A stretch of 31,268 nt of DNA from a virus (IMGVR_UViG_3300036828_001051:1-31268); one strand, 5' to 3'; numbered from the stretch's first letter, positions 1,249 through 27,333 are shown. Numbers and translations are program-made. Notes: generated from the letters alone by a model not told the origin.

Positions 1249-2172
1249 TTAATCCCAGAAGATGCAGTGGCCGATGGAGCGGAGCAGCTGGGCCTTGGCT
1301 TCGTAATTGGCATAGCTCGCGGAGAATTGCTCCATCAGGCCGAGGAAGAACCGAGCCTTCTGGTCGTTCTTGGCGTTCTGGGCGGCGGCGGCAAAGTAGT
1401 TGACAGCCTGGATGCGGATGCTCTCCGGATTGGCGCTGTCGAGCTTCTCCAACAACCCCATCGCCGCCCCCCACTGGGCGTTGCCCCGCGCCAGCAGCCG
1501 CAGCAGATCGATGGTTTCCTCCTGCTCTTCGACGGCTTGCAGCACCTCGGCGGCTTCAGTGCGGTCCTTGATGTCACGGCAGGCGGCGAGGTTCACCAGG
1601 GCTTGCCGAGCCGAGCCTTCGGCTCGTGCCACCACCAGTTGCCTGATCGCGTCAGGCAGCTCGATCCCTTCTTCGGCAGCCACATACTCCACCAGATCGG
1701 TGAGGTCGTTCTTGTCGAGCGGCTTGAGTTGGAGGTGCAGACAGCGGGTCTGCATGGTCTTCGGCATCTTGATCGGATTGGTAGTGCAGAAGAACCAGTA
1801 GACGCCCTCGGGCGGCTCTTCGGTGGCCTTGAGGATGCTGTCCCAGGCTTGTGGACTGAGGCGGTGGGCCTCGTCGATAATCACAGCCTTGCCGTCCTCG
1901 CCGGTCAGCGGGCGGTACTGTGTCATTTCCTGGATTTTGCGCATGTCCTCCACGCCCGTATAGGTGGCGGCATCCACCTCGGTCAGGGCGGTGTTGAAGG
2001 CTCGGGCGGTGATGCGCGCCAACGTGGTCTTACCGACGCCACTCGGGCCTGACAGCAGGAAACATTGAAAATCCCTGTGTTCGACAGCGCTTTCCATGAC
2101 CTTGACTGCGGCGTCCTGGCCGAGAACGTCTCGGAACTCAGCAGGTCTGTAGCTTGTATGCAGTGTGGTCAT
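1249..2172 (-). CDS. DnaX-like sliding-clamp loader ATPase
   Basis: 307 aa AAA+ protein. Walker A is GPSGVGKTT (residues 42-50), Walker B VIIDEAH (97-103), sensor 1 CTTNP, followed by a TRC motif equivalent to the SRC arginine-finger motif of clamp loaders. The run HRLSPQAWDSILKATEEPP is the DnaX/RFC hallmark. Unlike bacterial DnaX it has no zinc-binding cysteines after Walker A and lacks domains IV-V. In the family it opens and loads the sliding clamp at primed sites using ATP; the clamp gene is two genes upstream. The ATG at 2172 gives a 4-base ATGA overlap with the polymerase and a GGGAGG site 5 bases ahead, so it is chosen over the upstream ATG at 2190. Only one loader gene is seen, so it may form a homopentamer or recruit a host delta subunit. 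Confidence 0.85.
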   Translation of the reverse strand: MTTLHTSYRPAEFRDVLGQDAAVKVMESAVEHRDFQCFLLSGPSGVGKTTLARITARAFNTALTEVDAATYTGVEDMRKIQEMTQYRPLTGEDGKAVIIDEAHRLSPQAWDSILKATEEPPEGVYWFFCTTNPIKMPKTMQTRCLHLQLKPLDKNDLTDLVEYVAAEEGIELPDAIRQLVVARAEGSARQALVNLAACRDIKDRTEAAEVLQAVEEQEETIDLLRLLARGNAQWGAAMGLLEKLDSANPESIRIQAVNYFAAAAQNAKNDQKARFFLGLMEQFSASYANYEAKAQLLRSIGHCIFWD

Positions 2173-4739
2173 CTCAACCTCCCTGTCCAAGTATCGGATT
2201 CCAGCGGCCCGTAGGTTGTGATCTCTTCTACTTTATCCCAGCTTTGACCTACCGATATCTCTACGCTGAGAGGCACCACCTTGGTCCAGGGAAACGGGCA
2301 GGACAGCATGACATCGACAACGACTTCGGCATTCTTCTCGATCTCTCTGTCGGGCCAGATGAAGTTGAGATCGTCGTGTACCATCATGAACGGATAGAAC
2401 CGCGGTTCCTCCATCTCGCATAACCTGATCATAGCATCGAAGATGATTATAGCTTCATCGCTTTGGATCGGCGTATTGATCACTTCGGTGTGGGCGACAG
2501 GAGCGTAACGGCGGAATCCGGAGTGGCCGGTGACGTAGCCATTCTCCTGGTAGAACTGATGCAGACCTGCATGCCAGTCGGCAACGCCGGGGAAGGCGTC
2601 GCGGAACTCGTCGTGCAGCTGGTACCCCAACTCCTCGGGGATGCCGAGTGTTGTCGCCACCTTCCTGCCGCCAGCGCCGAAGAACGAAGCAAAGACAAAC
2701 TCGTTTTTGGCTCTGCCGCGAAACCATTTCATCAGCTTCTTGTCGGCAAGAACTTTTTTCAAGCCGCCATTGCGGTCAGCCCACTCTGGGTGAAGCTGGA
2801 ATATGCGGTCGCGCCAATCGGCATGAATGTCGTGCCGGTCCCAGAACGATTGCACCAGAGCTTCGTCGAGACTTTCCATAGCCACATTACGAGCCTGTAT
2901 CTGCCCGGAATCGAATGACACCATCTTGTAGCCTGGGGGAGCTTCGACCTGCCCGCGGACTTCGAGCGCATCGCCGAAATGCTTGGGGGCGTTCTGCACA
3001 TTCGGCTTCTCGCAGCTCGATCTCCATGTCCGCGTCCGCGACAGGTTCAGTATCGGGTGTAGCAGCCTGTCGGGAAAGACGCAGGATTCCTCGTGATCGA
3101 TGCGATAGGCGTTGATATAGGTGGACAACACCTTGGCGGATTCTTTCCACTCGATGTGGAGCTTCGCCAGCGGGTCGGCGATCTTCTCGATCTCGGCTTC
3201 CCGCGCGTTCGGCAGCACTTCCCCGATCAGCCTGAAAGCCTTCTTCGCATCGTTGTTATTGCTCGGACGGTAGTCGTGGCCGAAATTCTTCTTGAAGCGC
3301 TTGGCCAGCGGCGTGGCGTCGATCTGCTGGCGGACTTCCGCGAGTCTGGCCTCGTATTTCCTAGCCAGGTGTTCGCTCGTCCGTGGCGCTATCGGGATGC
3401 CGCGCAGCTGCATCAGGGTTGCCGCCTTGAGACGGCCGACGTGGTGCTCGTAGGTTTCCTTGCTGTCGTGCTCATCGAGCAGCCGGGACTGGGCGGTGTG
3501 CGTGAGCCTGTGGTACTTGGCGTCAATGCCGTTGTAGAGCAGCACTGTATCCAGCGGCGTGGCGTCCAGCTGCTCGCGGTCGATGTTGGTCAGCTGCTTG
3601 ATGCCGATGCCGAAATGGTTGATGCAGATGAAGTTGAGGTCGAGCGTGGCTTGGCGTTGGTCGAGGATGAAGGCTTGGGCCTGGGCGTCGCCCCAACGGC
3701 CGCGGTGGATGACCTGATCGCCGTAGAAATAGCCGAGCCACTCCATTTCGAATGGCGAGAACTGAACCTTGCGGCCTGCGCAGGTTTGCAGGAAATCGAC
3801 CAGCAGGTCCTCCAGCCTGGAGCGCTCGTCAGCTGTCCACTCGGCTTCGCGGTGATAGAGCGGGAACGAGACGGTCCCGGAGGCTCCGGACAGCGCCACG
3901 CTCAGGATGCAGGCTCCATCGCTGTACGGACGCAGGCAGTTGGTTTCCAGGTCGAGGCCGATGGTCTTGTCGCTGTGCAGCCGGGCCAGCCCGGCTTCAA
4001 CGGCTTCAAGATTACGGAGGCAATCGATGCCGCTCTCGGCATCGGCACGGGTGTGGACCCTGGGTGTTGGCAGACCTTGATCGACGGCGGCGAAGGCGCG
4101 GTCAAGGTCCTTGGTGAACACGAAGGACATGGCTTCGTGCTGCTCGCGGGTGTTGTCGTTGTCGAGGCGCAGGATGTAGGACGGATGCAGCAGCGGGAAA
4201 TACCAGCAGGTATGACTGCCGATCCGCACTGGAACCCGGCGTCCGTTCCACTTGGTGATGCTATTCTGTTTGATCGTCCAATGCAGCGGGATGCCGCCGA
4301 AGCCGAATATGGCCTCGGGCCGGGACTGCTCGATGTCCTGTTGCACCGAAGGGCGGCAGCACTCGATGGCGGCCACGGTCGGCGTGGCGTTGATGTAGAA
4401 CAGTTTGGTCTTGTTCAGTTTCACCGGCCGGGTGCGAACTACGTTGTTCCAGCGGAGCTGCTTCTCCCAGCGGTAGGGGATGTGCCTGTGCAGGAAATTC
4501 CCGGCCACGCCGACGAAATTCTCACCCTGGTTGGCTTCATCCTCTCCCGGCGCTTCGCCGAGCATGTAGACCTTCGGGTGCTCGCTGCCGTGCGCTTTGA
4601 TTTGCGCGTGTTTCGGTCTGTAGCCGTTCTGGTATTTGAGCGGGCACAGGTTGCAGCCGTGCGTGTGCAGGGCGGAGAAGGACAGGCCGCGAATCTCGTC
4701 GGGATCGGCATGGTTGCCGCTAGGCGGGAACAAGCTCAT
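2169..4739 (-). CDS. UDG-like domain fused to family-A DNA polymerase
   Basis: 856 aa. Residues 1-200: family-4-like uracil-DNA glycosylase, with C29-x2-C32, motif GEAPGEDE (61-68), NFVGVAG, C127/C128 and HPS (185-187). Three of the four usual iron-sulfur cysteines can be placed; the one expected in the VRTRP stretch is replaced by Thr. Residues 255-415: 3'-5' exonuclease, with Exo I DLE (D263, E265), a divergent Exo II (FSPFEMEWL) and Exo III Y402-x3-D406. Residues 440-840: polymerase, with NVQNAPK (580-586), motif A D610 (SFDSGQIQ), motif B R676-x-K678 to the FFGAGG turn, and motif C HDD (788-790). It should be the replicative polymerase. There is no 5'-nuclease domain. Start: GGGAG 9 bases upstream, 20-base overlap with the preceding gene. 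The fused glycosylase-like domain may survey template uracil or be a non-catalytic recruiter. Confidence 0.92.
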   Translation of the reverse strand: MSLFPPSGNHADPDEIRGLSFSALHTHGCNLCPLKYQNGYRPKHAQIKAHGSEHPKVYMLGEAPGEDEANQGENFVGVAGNFLHRHIPYRWEKQLRWNNVVRTRPVKLNKTKLFYINATPTVAAIECCRPSVQQDIEQSRPEAIFGFGGIPLHWTIKQNSITKWNGRRVPVRIGSHTCWYFPLLHPSYILRLDNDNTREQHEAMSFVFTKDLDRAFAAVDQGLPTPRVHTRADAESGIDCLRNLEAVEAGLARLHSDKTIGLDLETNCLRPYSDGACILSVALSGASGTVSFPLYHREAEWTADERSRLEDLLVDFLQTCAGRKVQFSPFEMEWLGYFYGDQVIHRGRWGDAQAQAFILDQRQATLDLNFICINHFGIGIKQLTNIDREQLDATPLDTVLLYNGIDAKYHRLTHTAQSRLLDEHDSKETYEHHVGRLKAATLMQLRGIPIAPRTSEHLARKYEARLAEVRQQIDATPLAKRFKKNFGHDYRPSNNNDAKKAFRLIGEVLPNAREAEIEKIADPLAKLHIEWKESAKVLSTYINAYRIDHEESCVFPDRLLHPILNLSRTRTWRSSCEKPNVQNAPKHFGDALEVRGQVEAPPGYKMVSFDSGQIQARNVAMESLDEALVQSFWDRHDIHADWRDRIFQLHPEWADRNGGLKKVLADKKLMKWFRGRAKNEFVFASFFGAGGRKVATTLGIPEELGYQLHDEFRDAFPGVADWHAGLHQFYQENGYVTGHSGFRRYAPVAHTEVINTPIQSDEAIIIFDAMIRLCEMEEPRFYPFMMVHDDLNFIWPDREIEKNAEVVVDVMLSCPFPWTKVVPLSVEISVGQSWDKVEEITTYGPLESDTWTGRLR

Positions 4740-4898: not shown

Positions 4899-5960
4899 TC
4901 AGCTTCCGCAGGACAGCAGATAGATGTCGTCGGGACCGCACGACAGGATCGCGCACCGATCGGTGATCAACAGGTCCTCGTACCTATCATATACCTTGTG
5001 TAGGAAGCTTGCTTTTAGCTTCACGGAAATGTCGGGATGCTCGATATTGATCTTGTCGATAGCCTCGCCGCGCTGAGAACTGGAACGGAACTCCATGGCG
5101 TTGTTGCGGCAGGCGACGTAGGTTTGCACTTCGTTGCCTTCGATGTTGCAGAGCCTGGCTGCCAGTTCGAGCGCGATCTTGAGGCGTGGTCGCTGCTGTT
5201 TGCTGAGCTTGATCGGTGGCTTGTTCGGCAGCATGCGGGCGAGCACCTTCTCGAAATCGGTCGGTTGTTCCGGAAGCGTTAGGTGTTGGCTGGACAACAC
5301 GGTGTCGTCGGCGAAGAACATGGCGTAGTCCTGGGTCAAGGCCAGCCGGTTCTTCACCGCATGTTTGCCCAAGCGTAGCATCTCGCCGCAGAACAAGGCG
5401 GGGAGGATTACCCGCTGTTTGAGCCGCAACGGCGGCGGCACATCAAGCTGCCGGTAGCTCATGGAGTTCTTGTTGTTGTACGAGAACAGCTTGGCTTTGG
5501 CCGTCGCGGGAATCCAGGTGATCCCGGTGTATTGCACCTCGCTGGAAGTTTCCACGGTCGATTGCAGCAGGGTGTCGATCGCGTCGAGAAAGTCCTCGTC
5601 GATCATCGCGGTGTTCTTTGCCGCGACCGGCATCCGGAAAACGAAATCCTCGATGCTGTGGGATTCGAGCTTGATCCTGGTCCTGCCGCCGCCGATGGTC
5701 ACGGCGCCGTTGCTTCTGCTAAGTTCGACCTTGTCGGCGTGGGAGATGATGCGCAAGGTGTCGATCAGCACCTTGCCGGGAACGGTGCCTTTGAAATCGC
5801 TTTTCAGAGCCGTGGCGATGGCGATCTTGGTATCGTAGGCGATGATCTGGGTGCCGGTGAAAAGGATGTGCTTGAGGATCGGCGACAGGTCATGAGCGGC
5901 TACGGCCGGGGCGACCGTTTCGAGTTTTTGCAGCAGCTCTTTGCGCTTGAATGACGACAT
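4899..5960 (-). CDS. DnaN-like DNA sliding clamp
   Basis: 353 aa, ATG at 5960 with GGAG 7 bases ahead; the longer ORF start at 5996 has no such site. The N-terminal third (SPILKHILFTGTQIIAYD, then DFKGTVPGKVLIDTLRII) follows the beta-clamp pattern of strand, helix and the PG-containing turn; later TRIKLESHSIEDFVFRMP corresponds to the clamp core motif that precedes 'ef P'. Two further repeats of the fold are weakly visible. In the family the clamp tethers polymerase to DNA. Neighbours (polymerase, loader) fit. The first 71 bases overlap the 3' end of the methyltransferase gene upstream. Divergent from bacterial DnaN; a PCNA-like phage clamp is the alternative. Confidence 0.75.
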   Translation of the reverse strand: MSSFKRKELLQKLETVAPAVAAHDLSPILKHILFTGTQIIAYDTKIAIATALKSDFKGTVPGKVLIDTLRIISHADKVELSRSNGAVTIGGGRTRIKLESHSIEDFVFRMPVAAKNTAMIDEDFLDAIDTLLQSTVETSSEVQYTGITWIPATAKAKLFSYNNKNSMSYRQLDVPPPLRLKQRVILPALFCGEMLRLGKHAVKNRLALTQDYAMFFADDTVLSSQHLTLPEQPTDFEKVLARMLPNKPPIKLSKQQRPRLKIALELAARLCNIEGNEVQTYVACRNNAMEFRSSSQRGEAIDKINIEHPDISVKLKASFLHKVYDRYEDLLITDRCAILSCGPDDIYLLSCGS

Positions 5961-7323
5961 CTTGTTCTCCGAATAATGAGGATTCCTTGGGCTCACCCTG
6001 GGTCATATCAGCCGGTTCGCGCAGCCCTTGTATCCGTCGTTTGATCATTGGTCTGTATTTGGCATTTAGCTCGATCAGAACAGCCTGGCGCCCGAACATT
6101 TTGGCTATAGCTCCAACCGTGCCGCTACCGCCGAATGGATCGAGGACGGTGCAGGGAACCACATCGGCATTGCAGGAGCAGGAAGGCGACCAGCCGATGG
6201 TTCGTGTACCGATCGGCTCATCGTAGCTTTGTCCTGCGGTTCCGCGCGAATGCCGAGCATCCTGTTTATCTCCGAACCATTTTTCGTGGTGCTTGTAATC
6301 AGTCTCAGTATGTCGTTTCCACGGTGCCCCGCACTTCGCGCAGCAGCCGCGTTCGCTCGTGCCTGCTTGCAGGCATATTGCGACAAGCTTCGGAGGGAAG
6401 GTTGCGAAGTGTGCGCCGGGGAATGGTGCTGTGGGTATTTCCCACACGGAGCGGCGGTTGCGATTTACTGATTGTTCTCCTGACTTGTATCTACCGGCAA
6501 GTTTAGCGAGACCGTCATTGCCGCCGTTATTAGCTCCGTATCGTTCTGCTGTATTTTTGATCCCGATTCCAGGGCCACTATGTGACCAGTCTTTCCCACT
6601 TTCCTTAACCGCTTCTGCATCATAGAAATATCGAGCTGATTTCGTGAACAGGAAAACGTATTCATGAGCTTTGGCTGGGCGGTCGGTTATCGACTCGGGC
6701 ATCGGATTCGGTTTCGACCAGATGATGTCGGAACGAAGCCACCATCCATCTGCTTGGAGCGCAAAAGCTACACGCCAGGGAACCCCGCATAAATCCTTCG
6801 GCTTTAATCCGTCTGTGACTGTACTGAATGGCTTATCGCGAAAGGTGCGGTCGTCATTGCCTGCTGCTTTGGTGTCGGCGGCGGAGCGGCCATTGATCGC
6901 GGTGGCGTAGCTATCGCCGTAGTTGAGCCAAAGGGTGCCATCGCTCCGCAGTACGCGACGAGCTTCGCGAAACACCTTGACCATTGCGGCTACGTGTTCA
7001 GCGAGTGTCGGCTCCAGCCCGAGTTGTGGATCAACATAGCGTGCTCCGCAAGAACAGATTGACGCTGGAAAGTCTGAAGGAAAAGCGCCTTCGGTTTGTT
7101 TTCCTGCGGCTCCGCTCCCGCCTCGGCCGCCCCGAGCTGCAATCCGGTCATGGTTATGCTTGGGGGCGCCGCCTTCCCATTTTCCGGTGCCGTAATCACG
7201 CAGCCCCCAATACGGCGGTGAAGTAATCACGCAATGCACCGACTCGCTTGGCAGCCGTTTAAGGACGCTAAGGCAGTCGCCTTCGTAAAGGACGACTGCC
7301 TTATCTAATTGATGAGGGGGCAC
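5890..7323 (-). CDS. Beta-class site-specific DNA methyltransferase (N4-cytosine or N6-adenine)
   Basis: 477 aa, GTG start at 7323 two bases after the stop of the preceding gene. Motif order is IV then I, the beta class: catalytic SPPYWGLRDYG (about residues 35-45) near the N-terminus and SAM-binding DPFGGSGT near residue 400, followed by VLIELN. SPPY is more typical of N4-cytosine enzymes, DPPY of N6-adenine, so N4-cytosine is favoured. Residues 330-385 contain CCAKCG and CSC that may bind zinc in the target-recognition insert. No cognate nuclease is nearby, so a solitary enzyme that protects phage DNA from host restriction is likely. The 3' end runs 71 bases into the clamp gene. Confidence 0.88.
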   Translation of the reverse strand: MPPHQLDKAVVLYEGDCLSVLKRLPSESVHCVITSPPYWGLRDYGTGKWEGGAPKHNHDRIAARGGRGGSGAAGKQTEGAFPSDFPASICSCGARYVDPQLGLEPTLAEHVAAMVKVFREARRVLRSDGTLWLNYGDSYATAINGRSAADTKAAGNDDRTFRDKPFSTVTDGLKPKDLCGVPWRVAFALQADGWWLRSDIIWSKPNPMPESITDRPAKAHEYVFLFTKSARYFYDAEAVKESGKDWSHSGPGIGIKNTAERYGANNGGNDGLAKLAGRYKSGEQSVNRNRRSVWEIPTAPFPGAHFATFPPKLVAICLQAGTSERGCCAKCGAPWKRHTETDYKHHEKWFGDKQDARHSRGTAGQSYDEPIGTRTIGWSPSCSCNADVVPCTVLDPFGGSGTVGAIAKMFGRQAVLIELNAKYRPMIKRRIQGLREPADMTQGEPKESSLFGEQDVVIQAQRAAAKTRNGRPGRSRS

Positions 7324-12708: not shown

Positions 12709-13037
12709 GACTGCTTTGTTCAGCTAAGCTGCGTTAGGCTCCGCTCTGCTATGCTATGCCTGCTTCGCTTTGCTGCGTTAGGCTCAGTTAGGCTCCGCTC
12801 TGCTCTGCTATGCCTGCTTTGCTCGGCTACGTTGTGCTCTGCGACGTTGTGCTCTGCTTCGCTAGGCTCCGCTCGGCTCTGCCTGCTTTGCTCAGCTCAG
12901 CTCCGTTACGTTGTGCTAAGCTCCGCTGTGCCTGCTTTGTTTTGCTGTGCTAGGCTTCGTTCCGCTCCGCTCAGCTTTGCTCCGCCTGCTTTGCTATGCC
13001 ACGCTTAGCACAGCGAAGCTCGGCTCAGCTCAGCCTG
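12709..13037 (-). repeat. Pentamer array 3 (most regular)
   Basis: About 330 non-coding bases. CCTGCTT anchors at 12759, 12813, 12882, 12931, 12985 and 13034, plus ACTGCTTTG at 12710; intervals 49, 54, 69, 49, 54, 49 are all exactly 5k+4. Each unit is 9-13 pentamers (NGCTN, sometimes NGTTN) then a four-base NGCC, then restarts with TGCTTTG. Even the inverted stretch at 13006-13020 keeps the 5-base phase. It lies just past the terminator of the upstream operon and before the 226-aa gene. Confidence 0.93.
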
Positions 13038-13561: not shown

Positions 13562-13604
13562 GTGATATCCTCCTCTTGTTGGTCGTTGCGCACTAACATT
13601 TCAT

Positions 13605-13633
13605 ATTCTATAGCCGAACGAGGCAGGATGCAA
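13605..13633 (-). promoter_or_regulatory. Sigma70-type promoter
   Basis: Minus strand TTGCAT (13633-13628), 17-base spacer, TAGAAT (13610-13605), about 45 bases before the ATG at 13561. Lies in the divergent region shared with the plus-strand amidoligase operon. Confidence 0.65.
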
Positions 13634-13639
13634 GGGGGT

Positions 13640-13650
13640 GTAGCTATAAT
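13640..13650 (+). promoter_or_regulatory. Candidate -10 / GTAGCTAT element for the plus operon
   Basis: GTAGCTATAAT contains a perfect TATAAT 72 bases before the amidoligase start, without a matching -35. The same sequence element recurs at 12671, so an activator or phage-specific polymerase specificity may be involved. Confidence 0.35.
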
Positions 13651-13722
13651 TTTTATCTCCCGGCCGTATTGACTCCAGCCGATGTAGCCGTAGACTGGGC
13701 ATCGATCATCAGGAGGCCACAA

Positions 13723-14913
13723 GTGGGCAAAGAGTTCAAGCGGTCATACGGTATCGAAATCGAGGTGCACGCGCCGGTGGGCAAGACCCGCGCGGCGTTG
13801 GCGCACGCCATCACCGCAGCAGGCGTTAGCTGCAAAGCCATCGAGTACCGCGATCACTACGATCACGGCGGAGGCTGGGCCATCAAGACCGACAGGTCGG
13901 TTGCCGCCGACTACGGCTTCGAGGCGGTGTCGCCGCCGCTGACCGGCGAGGAAGGCTTCGCGCAAACGGAGAAGGTCTGCGCCGTGTTGCTGCAGCACGG
14001 GTGCCAGATCACCAGCAAATGCGGCTTGCACGTTCATATCGATGCCAGGAATCCGACGCGGATTGCGATCGAAAGCCTGCGGCGGCTGGCCTTGCTCTAT
14101 GTCGGGCATGAGCTGCTGATCGATGCCTGCATGCCAGCGTCCCGGCGCGGCAAGGCGGCAGCTAACGGCTATGCTCACGGCTTTGCTGGGGTGTCGGCGA
14201 ACGCGATCATGGCCTGTCGCGATGCTGGTTCGCTTGCTCAGGTCATGCGGCCCGGCCGGGTACCGGGCGGTGCGCTGCGCGAATATCGCTACGTGAAGCT
14301 CAACTTCGGCTCGATCTTGACTCACGGCACCGTCGAATTTCGTCATCATGGCGGCACCCTGGAGCCCGAGAAAATCCGTAACTGGGTGTACGCCTGCCAG
14401 CGCATGGTCGAATATGCTTTGCGTGGCGAGGATCAACAGGTGGTCCACGAAACGCGCCGGGTCATCGCCACCGTGCGCCAGGGAACCAAGCGGGCGATGG
14501 TGGTGGACATGCTGCTGCGGCCGGTAGGCTGCACCCATTCGGAGGTGTTGCTGGCCACCGGCTGGAAGCAGGTCTCGGTTGCCGACATCGCCCATTGCTA
14601 CGGCCTGACGCTGCGCACCGAATCTGTCTACGTCTCGGTGCGCGTCGAAGGGGCAAGGCGGCAGCGGGAGACGCGCTATTGGGGCGTGCGCAGCGAAGCT
14701 TCGGAGCGCCCGACGCGGCGGTCGGGGAGTGTTGTCCACAGGCAGTCGGCGAGCAGCTTGCTGGAGTTCTGCACCCGCCTGGGCATGGACGAGGACGAAA
14801 TCAAGTTCTGGCAGTCCCGCGCCGATATGTTTGCCAGAGCTACATTGGCGGTGTCGAGCGCACAGCCGCAGCCGGATATTTTGACCGCACTCAGGACTGG
14901 AGGGACGATCTGA
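13723..14913 (+). CDS. Amidoligase-family protein (glutamine-synthetase-fold COOH-NH2 ligase)
   Basis: 396 aa. The GTG at 13723 sits 6 bases after AGGAGG and is preferred to the TTG at 13669. Family marks: YGIEIEV at the start (metal-binding Glu on the first strand), WAIKTDRSV and FEAVSPPLTGEEG, KCGLHVHIDA, a YVGHELLIDACMPASRR segment, then YVKLNFGSILTHGTVEFRHHG (catalytic strand with Glu, Arg, His) and NWVYACQRMV. These match the 'putative amidoligase' family, predicted to form amide bonds between a carboxylate and an amine with ATP. The C-terminal 120 residues are basic and variable. A gamma-glutamylcyclotransferase-like gene two genes on supports gamma-glutamyl or similar peptide chemistry. 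Substrate unknown: phage protein tags, cell wall or DNA-linked groups are options. Confidence 0.85.
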   Translation: MGKEFKRSYGIEIEVHAPVGKTRAALAHAITAAGVSCKAIEYRDHYDHGGGWAIKTDRSVAADYGFEAVSPPLTGEEGFAQTEKVCAVLLQHGCQITSKCGLHVHIDARNPTRIAIESLRRLALLYVGHELLIDACMPASRRGKAAANGYAHGFAGVSANAIMACRDAGSLAQVMRPGRVPGGALREYRYVKLNFGSILTHGTVEFRHHGGTLEPEKIRNWVYACQRMVEYALRGEDQQVVHETRRVIATVRQGTKRAMVVDMLLRPVGCTHSEVLLATGWKQVSVADIAHCYGLTLRTESVYVSVRVEGARRQRETRYWGVRSEASERPTRRSGSVVHRQSASSLLEFCTRLGMDEDEIKFWQSRADMFARATLAVSSAQPQPDILTALRTGGTI

Positions 14914-15041
14914 TGACCAAGAGACTTGTTGCCAGCAAACGCGCCAAATTTGTTTACTTTTGGTCGCGAGTCCAGGTTGGTGCGGCCCACGAATGCTGGC
15001 CATTTAAGGGTGGGATAGTACGGAAAAGGAGGAGAACATGA
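14913..15041 (+). CDS. Short HNH-endonuclease-like fragment
   Basis: 42 aa. ATG overlaps the amidoligase stop (TGATG), with GGAGGG 8 bases upstream; its own stop overlaps the next ATG (ATGA). Residues 13-30 (FVYFWSRVQVGAAHECWPFK) are the usual opening of phage HNH endonucleases (FW.kV....eCW.W.G), but the HNH core is missing and a basic tail (VRKRRRT) follows, encoded by the next gene's ribosome site. Most likely a decayed homing-endonuclease remnant kept as a coupling frame; a functional mini-protein is possible. Confidence 0.55.
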   Translation: MTKRLVASKRAKFVYFWSRVQVGAAHECWPFKGGIVRKRRRT

Positions 15042-15586
15042 CTAGAAAGTATTACCTTAGCTACGGCAGCAACCTCCATATCAGCAGCATGCGGCGGCGC
15101 TGCCCTGATGCCAAGCCGCTGTCGAAAATGCTGATCAACAATGCCCGGCTGGTGTTCCGCGGCGTGGCCGATCTGAGCTTCGAGCGTGGGCATCTGGCTC
15201 CGCTTGGGTTGTGGGAGATCAGCGCCAAGGATGAAGCTGTCCTCGATAGCTATGAGGGGGTCAATAGCGGAATGTACAGCAAGTACGATATCAAGGTTGA
15301 TGATGTAGGCAACACCGCGCTGATCTACCTGATGAATGACGATGGCATCTTTCCGCCGAGCGCCCAGTATGCCGCCATCATCCGCGCCGGGTACTGTGAT
15401 TTCGGCTTGGACGAAGCTTTCCTTGACGATGCGATCTGCCACTCGTACCGGGCGGTGTCGCACAGCGCGCAGACCCGTGCGCGACGCAAGCGGCAGAAGC
15501 TGAGCAACACGCACCGCTATCTGGCCGAACTGCCGAAGGAATTGAAGAATGCGGCTTGGAAGGCTGAAGGGGAGGGGATAAAATGA
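15038..15586 (+). CDS. Gamma-glutamylcyclotransferase-like (AIG2/GGCT fold)
   Basis: 182 aa with AAAGGAGGAGAAC at the start. YYLSYGSNLHISSMRRRCP is the diagnostic YGSNL loop; LGLWEISAKDEAVLDSYEGV holds the Asp/Glu region where the catalytic Glu lies (LDSYEG), and YSKYDIKV follows as in the family. The tail is basic. In the family it cyclises a gamma-glutamyl group to 5-oxoproline and frees the amine, or handles gamma-glutamyl-amines. Paired with the amidoligase it could trim or reverse the linkage. The stop overlaps the next ATG by ATGA, so the genes are translationally coupled. Confidence 0.88.
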   Translation: MTRKYYLSYGSNLHISSMRRRCPDAKPLSKMLINNARLVFRGVADLSFERGHLAPLGLWEISAKDEAVLDSYEGVNSGMYSKYDIKVDDVGNTALIYLMNDDGIFPPSAQYAAIIRAGYCDFGLDEAFLDDAICHSYRAVSHSAQTRARRKRQKLSNTHRYLAELPKELKNAAWKAEGEGIK

Positions 15587-16338
15587 AACGCTATGAAAAT
15601 AGCCAAGGTGTTTTCTTCATTGACGAGGCCGATCAGATGTTTGGCACGGAGATCGAGCGCGGCTACCATCTTGAGCTGGGTTTGGCCATGCATTACTCCA
15701 GGCCCGAGGATCACATCCTTGTACTCGGCGCTCATGTCGGCGCGGTGGCTATTCCGCTCTCGGCGGTGCGGCGGGAGGTTGTGGCTGTGGAGGCCAACCC
15801 GCGCACGTTTCGCGCTCTGGTTATGAACGTCAATTTGAATAGACGGCCCAATATCCGCTCGCTCCAAGCCGCAGCCAACGACCAGACTGGGGAAATCCAG
15901 TTTGTGCTCAATACCAGAAACAGCGGCAGCTCGAAGCGCATGCCCAAATTCGCCCACCGCGATTATTTCGACGACGACCCGCAGATTGTCACTGTCGTCG
16001 CTTGGCGCATGGACGATCTGGTCATGCACACAAACCTGATCTTCATGGATATCGAAGGCTCCGAGCACGCCGCCATGCTCGGCATGCCGCGGCTCCTGGG
16101 GGAGGCGCGAGCCGTGATTACGGAGTTCCTGCCACATCACCTCACCCACGTCGCCGGGATCACCGTCGAGCAATTCGTAGAGCCGTTGCTGCCACATTTT
16201 GACCGGCTGGAAATTCCAGGTGTGAGCAATCCGATCGAGCAACCGGCTTTTGTTCCGCTGCTGCAAGGCTTGGTTGATCGAGGCGTGTTCTGCCCAGCAA
16301 TCGTGTTCTACAAATCAGGAGGGAGCTATGGAATATAA
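15583..16338 (+). CDS. FkbM-type SAM-dependent methyltransferase
   Basis: 251 aa; GGAGGGG ahead of the ATG, 4-base overlap with the previous gene. SAM-binding motifs: HILVLGAHVGAVAIPLS (motif I, with Gly-His-Gly in place of the usual G-N-G) and VVAVEANPRTFRALVMNV (acidic end of strand 2), then LIFMDIEGSEHAAMLGM, the FkbM signature (D.EG.E..vL.G). FkbM enzymes O-methylate sugars, antibiotics or modified compounds. In this operon it could methylate the product of the amidoligase/GGCT pair. Substrate unknown. Confidence 0.8.
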   Translation: MKRYENSQGVFFIDEADQMFGTEIERGYHLELGLAMHYSRPEDHILVLGAHVGAVAIPLSAVRREVVAVEANPRTFRALVMNVNLNRRPNIRSLQAAANDQTGEIQFVLNTRNSGSSKRMPKFAHRDYFDDDPQIVTVVAWRMDDLVMHTNLIFMDIEGSEHAAMLGMPRLLGEARAVITEFLPHHLTHVAGITVEQFVEPLLPHFDRLEIPGVSNPIEQPAFVPLLQGLVDRGVFCPAIVFYKSGGSYGI

Positions 16339-16987
16339 CGCCGCAATGACGAAAGTCTTCGACAAGGTGCCGCCGCGAATGCGGCGGCTGCCGATTACCG
16401 AAGAGGGCTGGCCTCAGCTTTGGTTCGCGGGGATCACGGAAGCGGGCAAGCCGGACCTGCGCTGTGCTAATCCGGCGAAACGAGTGCAGGCAGTTACCCA
16501 CGATTTGTGCTGGTTGTGCGGGCAAACTTTGGGCGTGTGGAAGGTCTTCGTGACCGGCCCGATGTGTGCAGTTAACCGTACCACCAGCGAGCCGCCGTGC
16601 CATCTGGAGTGCGCGCAGTTCGCCGTCCTGGCGTGCCCGTTCCTGTCACGGCCGAAAATGAAGCGTAATGATGCCGACCTCCCTGACGGCTATGAAGCGC
16701 CTCCTGGTTATGCCATCATGCGTAATCCTGGCGCCACGGCGTTGTGGGTGTGCAAGAGCTACCGGCCGTTCCGCGTCGATTCTACGGAGTGGTTGATTGA
16801 AATGGGCGAGCCGCGCGAGGTGCTTTGGTATGCTGAAGGCGGCTTTGCCACGCGAGCCCAGGTCAGGGCCTCGATCGATAGCGGCTACCCAGCATTGTTG
16901 AAGATCGCCAAAGAGCAAAGCGGTGAAGCGGTGGTGTCGTTGGCGAGGAAGCTGGAAGGCGTGAAACGGTTTCTGCCTGCGGCATGA
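16328..16987 (+). CDS. Conserved Cys-rich phage protein, unknown
   Basis: 219 aa starting at the ATG after GGAGGGAGCT; overlaps the methyltransferase by 11 bases. Residues about 55-110 hold CWLCGQTL, VTGPMCAVNRTTSEPPCH, CAQFAVLACPFL: a CxxC plus Cys/His cluster that probably binds zinc. I recognise the pattern (CW.CG...GPMC..NR.tSEPPcH..CA....CPFL) from many phage and prophage genomes without a known function. The C-terminus is a basic helix. Last gene of the plus operon, 7 bases before the terminator. Confidence 0.82.
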   Translation: MEYNAAMTKVFDKVPPRMRRLPITEEGWPQLWFAGITEAGKPDLRCANPAKRVQAVTHDLCWLCGQTLGVWKVFVTGPMCAVNRTTSEPPCHLECAQFAVLACPFLSRPKMKRNDADLPDGYEAPPGYAIMRNPGATALWVCKSYRPFRVDSTEWLIEMGEPREVLWYAEGGFATRAQVRASIDSGYPALLKIAKEQSGEAVVSLARKLEGVKRFLPAA

Positions 16988-16993
16988 TAAGAA

Positions 16994-17021
16994 AAAAGGG
17001 GCCTGTTTCCAGGCCCCTTTT
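16994..17021. terminator. Bidirectional intrinsic terminator
   Basis: 12-bp stem 16994-17005 (AAAAGGGGCCTG) with 17010-17021, 4-base loop (GAAA on the minus strand). Plus strand has a T4 run; minus strand ends in T6. It serves the converging plus operon and the 63-aa minus gene. Confidence 0.92.
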
Positions 17022-17035
17022 CCCTATTTAACTGT

Positions 17036-17227
17036 TTACTCGTTACTCTCCCAACCAGCGTCCCATCCGCATTCCCAGGACACCGCTTGGAGAGAATCAT
17101 GCGGATACGGATTTTCCGGCGGTTCATCGGGTTGATTCGCTTTAACCGCTTTGTAACCGAGGTCGTATCCTACCAAGTACGCTTCGCCGTCGAACTCTTC
17201 GACTTTTCCAACACGTAAAGGTTTCAT
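17036..17227 (-). CDS. RMF/CrpP-like small protein
   Basis: 63 aa, AAAGGAGAGAGAC before the ATG. The C-terminal half has AYLVGYDLGYKA, NPYP and WECGWDAGW, the spacing (G...G....NPyp......W..GW) of ribosome modulation factor-like proteins. RMF dimerises 70S ribosomes; phage or plasmid relatives of this fold may bind other partners. A gene of its own transcription unit: a consensus promoter on one side and the bidirectional terminator on the other. Possibly expressed early and strongly. A second RMF-like protein is encoded at 24.7-25.1 kb. Confidence 0.6.
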   Translation of the reverse strand: MKPLRVGKVEEFDGEAYLVGYDLGYKAVKANQPDEPPENPYPHDSLQAVSWECGWDAGWESNE

Positions 17228-17291: not shown

Positions 17292-19688
17292 TCAAATAAT
17301 CGCTTTCCCGTCGATGATCTGCCGGAACAAATCGTTCCCTTCCTTGATCGCCTTCAGGATCGATTCGTCCACCGAATCGGCACAGACCAGATCGTAGCTG
17401 AAAACATGCTTGTGCTTGGAATCCTGCCGCTCGAAACGGCGGCGGCATTGCTTGCGCACATCAGGCCGCACCGGGCTCTCATAGAAGAAGCCGTATTTCG
17501 CCGCCTGCAGGTTCAGTCCCTCGCCGAAGCTGTTCTGCATGACCAGGACGCGGACGTTCGGATCGTCGTTGAACCGCCTGCGTGCTCCACCTTGATCCTT
17601 GGTCTTGCCGTAGAGGTGGAGCGCGCCGATCCCAAGCCGGTGCAGTTCCTTGATGATGCGCAGGCCCGACCATGTGTATTCGTAGAAAACGATAGCTTTG
17701 TCGTCCACGCTTTCCAGCAAGGTCAGCAGCAGTTCCAGCTTCGGGTTGTCGGGGAAGGTGAACTGTGCGCTCTTGCCGGTGTCGTCGTCCTTGAAGCCGA
17801 CGAAGCCGGAACTGATCTGGCGCATACGCAGCCAGGCGTTCTTCTGTTCGCGGTAGTTGCCGACGCTTTCGCGCATGGTCGTCACCGCGCGCCGGTAGTA
17901 GGTTTCGGCGTCCTCGGGCAATGAGAACTTCTTGACGATCTCCACCACCTTGGGCAGGTCGGCTTCATCGGCTTCGAAGCGGATCGAGCGATTGTTGAGA
18001 ATGCGGTTGAGCAAGCCGCTTTTCGATTTCTTGAATATGAACTTGGCGGTGCCGAACAAATCCTTCTGCTCGGAGAAGAACGCGGCGCGGAACAGGGCCA
18101 GGGTCTCGCCCAGGGTCTCGCCGCCGTCCACCATGCGCATCTGCCCCCAGAGGTCGGTGGGATCACGCCCGAGCGGCGTGGCTGACAACGCCATGACCAG
18201 CTTCGCGTTAGTGGCGATGCGGTTGCATATTCGAAATGGCAGCTTGTTCTTCGATTTGGCTCCGTGGCTTTCGTCGAGCACGATCCCATCGAATTTGTCG
18301 GTCAGCGCCCGCATCAGCCGTGGACTGACATCGAGGCGATTGCGTCCCTTCCTGCCGCGGCGTTGGTCCTTCACTTTTTCGCAGGCGAGGTAATACAGGC
18401 CCGAATACGTCTCGATCGTGACCAGGGCGTCGCTGCAGCCGAGCATGAGGTGCTTGGCTTCCGTCTCCGATGGCATGATGCAATAGCTCAGGTTGGGGAA
18501 GTGCTTCTCGATTTCGAGCTTCCATTCTTCCTTGTTGGCCTTGCGCGGCACCAGGACGAGAACGTGCCTGATCTGCTTGCGCCGTTGCAGGTGCAAAGCC
18601 ACAGCCAAGGTGGTGATTGTCTTGCCTGAATTGTGATGGCATAGCCCGTGCGCGATATAATTTTCATAGACAGGGACATGAATATCGTAGTAGACATCAT
18701 ATCGGAGAAAACGGACACTGGCTATGGAGTCAAATGATGAAGCGTCCTTTCCAAATCCAAATGCCGCGGCTTCGTTATTTAGTCTCTCTCGGCTGGCGAC
18801 TGACTGAGTTGGCTGCGAAGTATAACTGCGACCGTCGTATGGTTCATCAACGCATCCAAACTCTGGATATCCTTTACAATTATAGCAAAGGCTCTCCTGG
18901 CTCGCGAAATGGTTCTTGGAAGGGCGGCCGATCAAAGAGGAAAGGCTATTGGTACATTCTGAGGCCCAATCACCCGAATGCGACCAAAGGGGGCTATGTT
19001 CTGGAATCACGGTTGGTAATGGAGAAAAAGTTGGGGCGTTTGCTGTCTCGTTCGGAGGTAGTCCATCATAAAGACAGCAACCTTGACAATAACAAACTAA
19101 GCAATCTGTTTGTTTATGGCAGCAACGGTGAGCACTTGGCTGAAACTCTGAAAGGCCAATGTCCGAACTGGACTGAGGATGGCAAGCGTCGAATACAGGA
19201 AGGCGTGCACCGAGCTGTTGTGAAGCGAAAAAAGAAAGCCATCCAGCATCAGTTAAGAAGCGGTGCCGCGCGGTTACCACGATAATTCGGCCAGACGCGA
19301 ATCGGATTTCAAATAGCGCTGTTGGTCCTAATTGAAATGGACATTCAGCTTCGACTAAACGCAAGCCGTTTTGCGTTCTCGCCCAAACCAGCAGCGGCTT
19401 CCCACGCCGATATAATTCGTCAATCCTGATTGGACCGCGGTCTGTCTCAATCAAGGTTTCGGCACCTACACATCCCGTGTCGGCCCAGAGCGCGAAGCGA
19501 AGAGCGCGCAGCACCACCAGCAGCATGATCTTCTGGTGCAGCCGCAGCTTCTGCCATACGGCCGGATCGACCCGGCGTTTGTCAGCAAGCCGATCCAGAG
19601 CTTCAGGCTTCAGTCTTTTGTAAACTGCCCAGTTGCTTCTGGGGCGGTTGAGGAAGGCTGGGACGGCGCGTGGGTCGAGGGCTCCCAT
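17292..19688 (-). CDS. SNF2-type helicase/ATPase interrupted by an intein
   Basis: 798 codons: extein 517 aa plus intein 281 aa (residues 73-353). N-extein ends ALWADTG and C-extein starts SGKTITTLA, so splicing would rebuild the Walker A motif DTGSGKT. Other helicase marks: VLVLVPRKANKEEW (motif Ia), GIVLDESHGAK (DESH-box, motif II), LVMALSATPLG (III), VLVMQNSFGEGLNLQAA (V) and QCRRRFERQ (VI). SNF2-type proteins move along double-stranded DNA; phage versions assist replication or recombination. Before splicing the ATPase should be dead. Start at 19688 with AAGG 5 bases upstream; overlaps the previous gene by 79 bases. No cofactor genes nearby. Confidence 0.9.
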   Translation of the reverse strand: MGALDPRAVPAFLNRPRSNWAVYKRLKPEALDRLADKRRVDPAVWQKLRLHQKIMLLVVLRALRFALWADTGCVGAETLIETDRGPIRIDELYRRGKPLLVWARTQNGLRLVEAECPFQLGPTALFEIRFASGRIIVVTARHRFLTDAGWLSFFASQQLGARLPVFDACHPQSSSDIGLSEFQPSAHRCCHKQTDCLVCYCQGCCLYDGLPPNETANAPTFSPLPTVIPEHSPLWSHSGDWASECTNSLSSLIGRPSKNHFASQESLCYNCKGYPEFGCVDEPYDGRSYTSQPTQSVASRERLNNEAAAFGFGKDASSFDSIASVRFLRYDVYYDIHVPVYENYIAHGLCHHNSGKTITTLAVALHLQRRKQIRHVLVLVPRKANKEEWKLEIEKHFPNLSYCIMPSETEAKHLMLGCSDALVTIETYSGLYYLACEKVKDQRRGRKGRNRLDVSPRLMRALTDKFDGIVLDESHGAKSKNKLPFRICNRIATNAKLVMALSATPLGRDPTDLWGQMRMVDGGETLGETLALFRAAFFSEQKDLFGTAKFIFKKSKSGLLNRILNNRSIRFEADEADLPKVVEIVKKFSLPEDAETYYRRAVTTMRESVGNYREQKNAWLRMRQISSGFVGFKDDDTGKSAQFTFPDNPKLELLLTLLESVDDKAIVFYEYTWSGLRIIKELHRLGIGALHLYGKTKDQGGARRRFNDDPNVRVLVMQNSFGEGLNLQAAKYGFFYESPVRPDVRKQCRRRFERQDSKHKHVFSYDLVCADSVDESILKAIKEGNDLFRQIIDGKAII
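18630..19472 (-). other. Intein in the helicase Walker A motif, carrying an antisense homing endonuclease gene
   Basis: 281 aa. Splicing block A starts at Cys (CVGAETLIETDRGPI); block B is IIVVTARHRFLTDAGW with the T-x-x-H; block F VYYDIHVPVYENYIAHG; block G CHHN with the next extein residue Ser. All four catalytic positions (Cys1, block B His, penultimate His, terminal Asn, +1 Ser) are present, so it should splice. Where an endonuclease domain normally lies between blocks B and F (intein residues about 94-246), the sense translation is a Cys/Ser-rich sequence with no family features, because those bases encode an HNH enzyme on the other strand while the sense frame stays open. Confidence 0.9.
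18734..19285 (+). CDS. HNH homing endonuclease encoded antisense inside the intein
   Basis: 183 aa (182 if the second of two adjacent ATGs is used); GGAG lies 4 or 7 bases ahead. Residues 20-42: helix-turn-helix (LTELAAKYNCDRRMVHQRIQ). Residues 65-140: GYWYILRPNHP, GGYVLESRLVMEKKLGRLL, EVVHHKDSNLDNNKLSNL, the typical phage HNH nuclease core with the His-His pair, Asn and the EHR-like helix. The C-terminal 40 residues are basic. It lies wholly within the intein bases 18630-19472. The last 30 or so residues are antisense to splicing block B. In the family such enzymes cut intein- or intron-less alleles to spread the element. The gene is visibly more AT-rich than its neighbours, a sign of transfer. 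Confidence 0.88.
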   Translation: MMKRPFQIQMPRLRYLVSLGWRLTELAAKYNCDRRMVHQRIQTLDILYNYSKGSPGSRNGSWKGGRSKRKGYWYILRPNHPNATKGGYVLESRLVMEKKLGRLLSRSEVVHHKDSNLDNNKLSNLFVYGSNGEHLAETLKGQCPNWTEDGKRRIQEGVHRAVVKRKKKAIQHQLRSGAARLPR

Positions 19689-26742: not shown

Positions 26743-27333
26743 TTATCGCTGGGTCAGTGACTGATTTACGATTCTGGCCAAGGCCGGGTGAATCAATTTG
26801 GCGGTTCGCATGCGGGTCGCAGTTCCTTCATAGGTGTGCTTGTAGACGGTGGTTTGCGCCCCGCCCGTGCCGTGGGCGCCGGTCCGGGGATCGTGCCTTG
26901 GTATGTGCAGGTTGAGGAGTGGATGATCAGCAAGATATTGTTTAAGCTCCTCCATGAAAGCCCGCTGGCGTCTTGGGCTCATCGTTCGCGAACTGTCGTA
27001 GCCTTTGATCCACGTGCCGAATACGTGTTTGTAGCGGATGGAAAGCTTCGGTTGCCGGTTTGGTCTAATCATGGCCAGGATGTAGATCGTCGAAGGCTCG
27101 GTATGCACGTAAAGCACCGGATGACCAAAGAGCCTCTCCCCGGCTTCGCGAATCGCGTTGGATATTCCGCATTCCCAGGGAACACCGCGCCCATCCGGCT
27201 TGAAATGGCGGAATAGGATCGGGAGGCTTTTTTCCGTGGAAGCATCGAGATAGGGGGTATCGACCCAAGCTCCATCATCATAGTACAAGCGTCTTGTCGG
27301 CAGGGTTAACAGCTTCTTTTCGGTGATACGCAT
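26743..27333 (-). CDS. Phage protein, unknown
   Basis: 196 aa; AGGAAAA ahead of the ATG; stop 3 bases before the next gene. Mixed alpha/beta sequence: VDTPYLDASTEKSLPILF, VPWECGISNAIREAGERLF, VLYVHTEPSTIYILAMIR, then a basic C-terminus. No family recognised. The gene order is conserved-looking with its neighbours; function is not proposed. Confidence 0.7.
   Translation of the reverse strand: MRITEKKLLTLPTRRLYYDDGAWVDTPYLDASTEKSLPILFRHFKPDGRGVPWECGISNAIREAGERLFGHPVLYVHTEPSTIYILAMIRPNRQPKLSIRYKHVFGTWIKGYDSSRTMSPRRQRAFMEELKQYLADHPLLNLHIPRHDPRTGAHGTGGAQTTVYKHTYEGTATRMRTAKLIHPALARIVNQSLTQR

Follow-up and report, generated by a model that had tools for sequence, protein, structure and literature searches.

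An amidoligase-GGCT pair and two companion genes, set in reverse orientation within the replication region of a bacterial virus

The DNA considered here, referred to throughout as the window (IMGVR_UViG_3300036828_001051:1-31268; 31,268 nt), is a 31-kb genome fragment of a soil-type bacterial virus, and it carries on its plus strand a compact group of genes for an amidoligase, a protein of the gamma-glutamyl cyclotransferase (GGCT) fold, an FkbM-family methyltransferase of the S-adenosylmethionine (SAM) dependent type and a Cys-rich protein (Table 1). An initial annotation had proposed these four genes as a candidate pathway for a novel peptide-type modification of a phage or host component. 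Open reading frames (ORFs) and family profiles confirm the four genes at the positions and on the strand assigned to them there, and the plus-strand unit comprises five ORFs if a 42-codon ORF, unnoticed in that annotation, is counted. The translational coupling that had been described is present as gene overlaps, but the TGATG (14911-14915) joins the amidoligase gene to the 42-codon ORF and not to the GGCT gene, with the two ATGA overlaps joining the 42-codon ORF to GGCT (at 15038) and GGCT to FkbM (at 15583), while the FkbM and Cys-rich genes overlap by 11 bp. The cassette had also been placed on the opposite strand from everything else; this is so for the other predicted protein genes, all on the minus strand, but not for a tRNA-Gly (GCC; 26835-26910), which also lies on the plus strand, antisense within a minus-strand ORF (26743-27333).

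Table 1. Positions of the genes and signals of the plus-strand unit in the window.
Feature	Position	Strand	Remarks
Candidate sigma-70-like promoter	13669-13696	+	consensus match 9/12 only; ahead of the amidoligase, between divergent genes (intergenic region 13562-13722)
Amidoligase	13723-14913	+	GTG start; AGGAGG Shine-Dalgarno; 396 aa
42-codon ORF	14913-15041	+	overlaps neighbour genes on both sides; probably the remaining N-terminal part of an HNH homing endonuclease
GGCT	15038-15586	+	GGCT/AIG2 fold; 182 aa
FkbM-family SAM methyltransferase	15583-16338	+	251 aa
Cys-rich protein	16328-16987	+	219 aa
Bidirectional intrinsic-terminator hairpin	16994-17021	both	12-bp stem; between the convergent Cys-rich gene and minus-strand gene 17036-17227

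As to the borders of the unit, the hairpin at its end, described earlier as a dedicated terminator, is real and strong both ways (z -5.0 on the plus strand, -5.6 on the minus strand), but it is not dedicated, since the convergent gene shares it and the minus strand has the better U-tract. The convergent gene, which has a good promoter-like site before it and the shared hairpin at its end, encodes a 63-residue protein that weakly resembles ribosome modulation factor (PF04957, 6.6e-4, below the cut-off). At the other border, the sigma-70-like site upstream of the amidoligase is suggestive at best of a promoter. Within the unit, the 42-codon ORF is probably what is left of an HNH homing endonuclease inserted between the amidoligase and GGCT genes. 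Ten of its 11 best tblastn matches in phages are HNH endonucleases, these matches being weak (E 0.1-4) and some of the records being duplicates or near relatives, and in the one such match examined the alignment covers the N-terminus of a protein with an HNH_3 domain. The G+C content at third codon positions (GC3) is 0.51 in this ORF, versus 0.79 and 0.74 in its neighbours.

The first enzyme of the cassette matches Amidoligase_2 (PF12224; E 1.2e-26, 94.5 bits versus the curated Pfam cut-off of 22), as well as a PHROG profile (9e-34), with the core of the glutamine synthetase (GS)/YbdK fold spanning residues 1-235 of 396. The residues conserved in this family (GxExE, D-x-S, E-x-VSP, GxHxH, R/N, and EFRxH) are all kept; they are invariant in an alignment of 37 phage homologues, the window protein included, and are present in eight sequences from other phages. 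The AlphaFold2 model (predicted local distance difference test, pLDDT, 83) has the GS/YbdK fold, as the initial annotation had anticipated. Its top match is YbdK (1r8g; GS/GCS superfamily; Z 14.0, 251 residues aligned, root-mean-square deviation 4.9, 14% identity over the aligned residues), and further matches are with glutamine synthetases (Z about 13; GS 13.4), the plant glutamate-cysteine ligase, and Dop. What sets the phage protein apart from YbdK, beyond the low identity, is an extension added onto the catalytic core, composed of a DUF3489-like winged helix at residues 250-290 (DUF3489 3.2e-7, just above the cut-off; helices 256-264, 272-279, and 286-292 in the model), followed by a helical tail. 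The second enzyme matches AIG2_2 (E 5.2e-9, 36.9 bits versus the curated Pfam cut-off of 27) and PHROG 2520 (6.7e-24), the score with the GGACT model being below the cut-off (19 versus 22.8 bits). In a profile search with an alignment it matches human GGCT (2pn7; 4.9e-16), with which it shares the fold family, the substrate loop YGSN (Y9-G-S-N12) and, within the motif EGVxSGMY, a glutamate, Glu73, aligned with the human catalytic Glu98, while it differs in having another C-terminal tail. No loss of catalytic residues is thus seen in either protein, and both look catalytically active, judging by the conserved positions.

The question of which of these genes travel together was addressed with 80 related viral amidoligase loci, fetched with an amidoligase alignment and chosen by similarity among the matches listed, from contigs that can be incomplete. 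Alignment queries were needed, as single-protein scans of the viral contigs with GGCT, the amidoligase or the Cys-rich protein recovered no relatives, and a DNA-level comparison of the region with named phages gave no match. A GGCT gene is found within 2 kb downstream of the amidoligase, on the same strand, at 40 of the 80 loci; 35 are without it and five run out of sequence. All 35 loci devoid of GGCT belong to more distant amidoligases, while, among the matches listed, 25 of the 26 closest amidoligases are paired with GGCT and the remaining one (L024) is cut by the contig end. Named phages of Clostridia and of Bacilli also carry the pair in their annotation. Candidatus Heliusvirales phages, Terrisporobacter phage TPDSL_ph1, Geobacillus phage GR1, and Bacillus phage 035JT001 possess the same enzymes in the same order and on the same strand, with GGCT directly or shortly downstream, but their amidoligases are without the long C-terminal extension, and the stretches fetched contain neither an annotated FkbM gene nor a homologue of the Cys-rich protein. 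The pairing noted by the initial annotation is therefore conserved across phages, and the pair is therefore probably functional. The core of the cassette is real, well conserved and of an already known kind.

The closest of the listed amidoligases (44% identity; locus L021) comes from a 61.8-kb viral contig (IMGVR_UViG_3300047160_010625; record G038), whose replication genes are collinear with those of the window: clamp loader, a uracil-DNA glycosylase-PolA fusion, sliding clamp, primase, the reversed cassette, SNF2 helicase, and DnaB. An amidoligase with the winged helix and a GGCT (55% identity) occupy the same site in the same reversed orientation, but the FkbM and Cys-rich genes are both absent from this cassette. 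Two phages that are less closely related, vB_EpM_ZHS of Edwardsiella and SSP002 of Vibrio, have the replication module in common with the window but possess no annotated amidoligase or GGCT at this position, and by this comparison of gene order the cassette is an insertion common to the window and G038. The HNH stump and the genes for FkbM and the Cys-rich protein were gained in the branch of the window, or else lost in the other. In G038, a TnpB/IS605 OrfB-like gene (L021:3529-4713, minus strand) is found directly upstream of the amidoligase, and together with the HNH stump of the window it raises the possibility that the site attracts mobile elements in both phages. A further difference concerns the neighbouring SNF2-type helicase, which in the window (17292-19688, minus strand) is interrupted by an intein of about 280 residues within Walker A (DTG / SGKT), while the homologue at L021, 59% identical, is without the intein. 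Elsewhere in the window, an N6/N4 DNA methylase (5890-7323, minus strand), for which no counterpart was found in G038, has a GC3 of 0.53 among genes of 0.73-0.80, and perhaps it was recently acquired.

The two downstream genes present a different picture from the pair. The FkbM protein is recognized by TIGR01444 (E 4.8e-18, 66 bits versus the NCBIfam cut-off of 37.7) and by Methyltransf_21 (Pfam, E 1.8e-9), and the SAM motif I (GAHVG), the acidic loop (VEANP), and DxEGxE (as MDIEGSE) can be read in its sequence, with Leu in place of the usual motif-I Asp. A scan of viral contigs with this single protein led to one locus, in an unrelated gene cluster of sugar/glycan type, and a search for an origin via plasmids produced only two distant matches. 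The Cys-rich protein matched no Pfam, PHROG or NCBIfam family, while six of its residues (C61, C64, C80, H92, C95, and C103) are invariant in an alignment of 27 sequences. Its AlphaFold2 model is confident (pLDDT 88, predicted template modelling score 0.85), and it has no Foldseek match at E <= 0.001 in the PDB or BFVD, the best VIA-align match (Z 4.6, 47 residues) covering C-terminal helices only; the missing match is no proof that the fold is new. Homologues are common, being found at 37 viral loci and at 18 genome loci, the latter mostly of soil bacteria (e.g., Bradyrhizobium, Rhizobium, Paraburkholderia, and Streptomyces), with no conserved neighbours beyond small groups of similar contigs.

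No homologue of either protein stands beside the amidoligase-GGCT pair at any of the 80 listed amidoligase loci, in a run in which the Cys-rich query did recover its own 37 homologues. Since a strongly diverged FkbM protein may escape a homologue search, the TIGR01444 profile was also run on the whole records; it occurs in three of the 80, about 5.5, 6, and 14 kb from the pair, too distant for linkage, and a link of FkbM with the pair was rejected. The reciprocal view is similar, in that none of the 55 loci with a Cys-rich homologue (37 viral and 18 genomic) has the pair beside it, and none of the 37 viral records contains an FkbM gene. An amidoligase is found in only one of these 37 records, at the opposite end of the contig, and a link of the Cys-rich protein with the pair was likewise rejected. 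Conservation of the four-gene cluster in relatives, which the initial annotation had put forward as a check, is thus not seen at the amidoligase loci, at the Cys-rich loci or in the syntenic G038, and as the FkbM and Cys-rich genes are unlinked to the pair in relatives, a four-step pathway is not supported. Absence from close relatives, which that annotation had named as grounds for refutation, thus applies to the FkbM and Cys-rich half of the cluster. The literature searched yielded no published precedent for an amidoligase together with FkbM. Membership in a defence system was also set aside, as PADLOC gave nothing beyond weak matches to individual domains. The FkbM and Cys-rich genes are probably separately acquired, lineage-specific genes that share a transcription unit with the pair and are not obligatory for its pathway. 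A genuine four-gene pathway, in which the amidoligase would build a gamma-glutamyl or peptide adduct, FkbM would methylate it, GGCT would trim it, and the Cys-rich protein would bind or deliver the substrate, with a virion or host component being modified, would agree with the single, tightly overlapping unit and its one terminator, and FkbM enzymes are often O-methyltransferases acting on small molecules and glycans. Yet it is decidedly unlikely in view of the distributions just described, and in particular of a relative from the same lineage that keeps the pair without either of the other genes. A cooperation particular to this lineage, with the winged-helix amidoligase, GGCT, FkbM, and the new-family Cys-rich protein jointly decorating a component of the phage or the host with a methylated gamma-glutamyl adduct, must be regarded as very doubtful.

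As to function, we favour, with a probability of about 60%, a phage accessory cassette with an amidoligase-GGCT core, flanked at a conserved site by the SNF2 helicase and primase genes and read opposite to the replication genes, that would make and cleave gamma-glutamyl-type amides with the envelope as the target, and to which FkbM and the Cys-rich protein would be add-ons. As far as sequence comparison goes, the identities of the genes, the intact catalytic residues, and the conserved pairing, order, and orientation of the pair are well established. Because of the families to which the enzymes belong, the amidoligase would be expected to activate a carboxylate, probably gamma-glutamyl, with ATP as an acyl-phosphate and then to join it to an amine, forming an amide, while GGCT would release gamma-glutamyl groups as 5-oxoproline, through cyclizing cleavage, and so could trim, recycle or edit the same kind of linkage that the amidoligase makes. 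A similar combination has been described as a "peptidoglycan modification cassette" in Pseudoalteromonas phage PSA-HP1 and its relatives (PMC5498523), so that the pathway is not of a new type, and later papers credit the proposal to Iyer et al. 2009. Cassettes of this type have been hypothesized to remodel peptidoglycan peptides against superinfecting phages (PMC5498523, PMC11318856, PMC11253131). By analogy with these proposals, the target is most likely a peptide of the host envelope, for example a stem peptide of the peptidoglycan, which the phage would alter in the infected cell so as to keep competing phages out. The window resembles the PSA-HP1-type cassette in combining an amidoligase and a gamma-glutamyl cyclotransferase among genes for DNA metabolism, and differs in the reversed orientation, in the downstream FkbM and Cys-rich genes, and in the winged helix of the amidoligase.

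Several points weigh against this interpretation. The peptidoglycan target is a published hypothesis only, the literature on phage amidoligase-GGCT pairs having yielded no demonstrated substrate. The second amidoligase, the ATP-grasp protein, and the glutamine amidotransferase of the PSA-HP1-type cassette were not found among the scanned proteins of the window, itself a fragment, which shows a single amidoligase with its GGCT. A peptidoglycan enzyme does not obviously need a winged helix, and the presence of four genes in one tight transcription unit leaves room for a joint function in this lineage. One alternative places the pair in small-molecule metabolism, where it would attach gamma-glutamyl groups to a soluble amine, polyamine or thiol and take them off again, and not act on the envelope. 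Parallels exist in the gamma-glutamyl protecting-group logic of butirosin biosynthesis (BtrJ/BtrG) and in glutathione-like metabolism, and the closest solved structures are consistent with such a role, being YbdK for the amidoligase and, for GGCT, the human enzyme, whose substrates are small gamma-glutamyl amino acids. With no other recognizable pathway genes nearby, and with a wide spread in unrelated phages that fits a role against the host or competitors at least equally well, this alternative appears unlikely, though it deserves consideration.

The winged helix leads to another alternative, as it may leave the amidoligase a role linked to nucleic acids, guiding the enzyme to DNA or to a DNA-bound protein, so that a base or a replication protein would receive an amino acid or a peptide. 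This domain is conserved at 16 of the amidoligase loci retrieved from environmental phages, and the cassette sits within a replication module. However, many of the amidoligases paired with GGCT are without a winged helix, family scans recognized no genes for base hypermodification among the window proteins, and the position within the replication module by itself tells little, making such a modification highly improbable.

An amidoligase paired with GGCT is widespread among phages and yet uncharacterized there, and the comparison presented here narrows the unit by telling a conserved two-enzyme core apart from passenger genes. The case also demonstrates that the pair keeps a stable reversed position within one lineage of phages and that a subgroup of the amidoligases bears a winged-helix extension, and it points to a family of Cys-rich phage proteins with a confident model and no detected structural relative. 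Two minor observations can be added for the window. The uracil-DNA glycosylase domain is fused ahead of the family A DNA polymerase in a gene at 2169-4739 (minus strand), and degenerate short tandem repeats, with units of 5, 15, and 54 bases, lie at positions 12738-12995, where two genes of the minus strand are separated by a gap.

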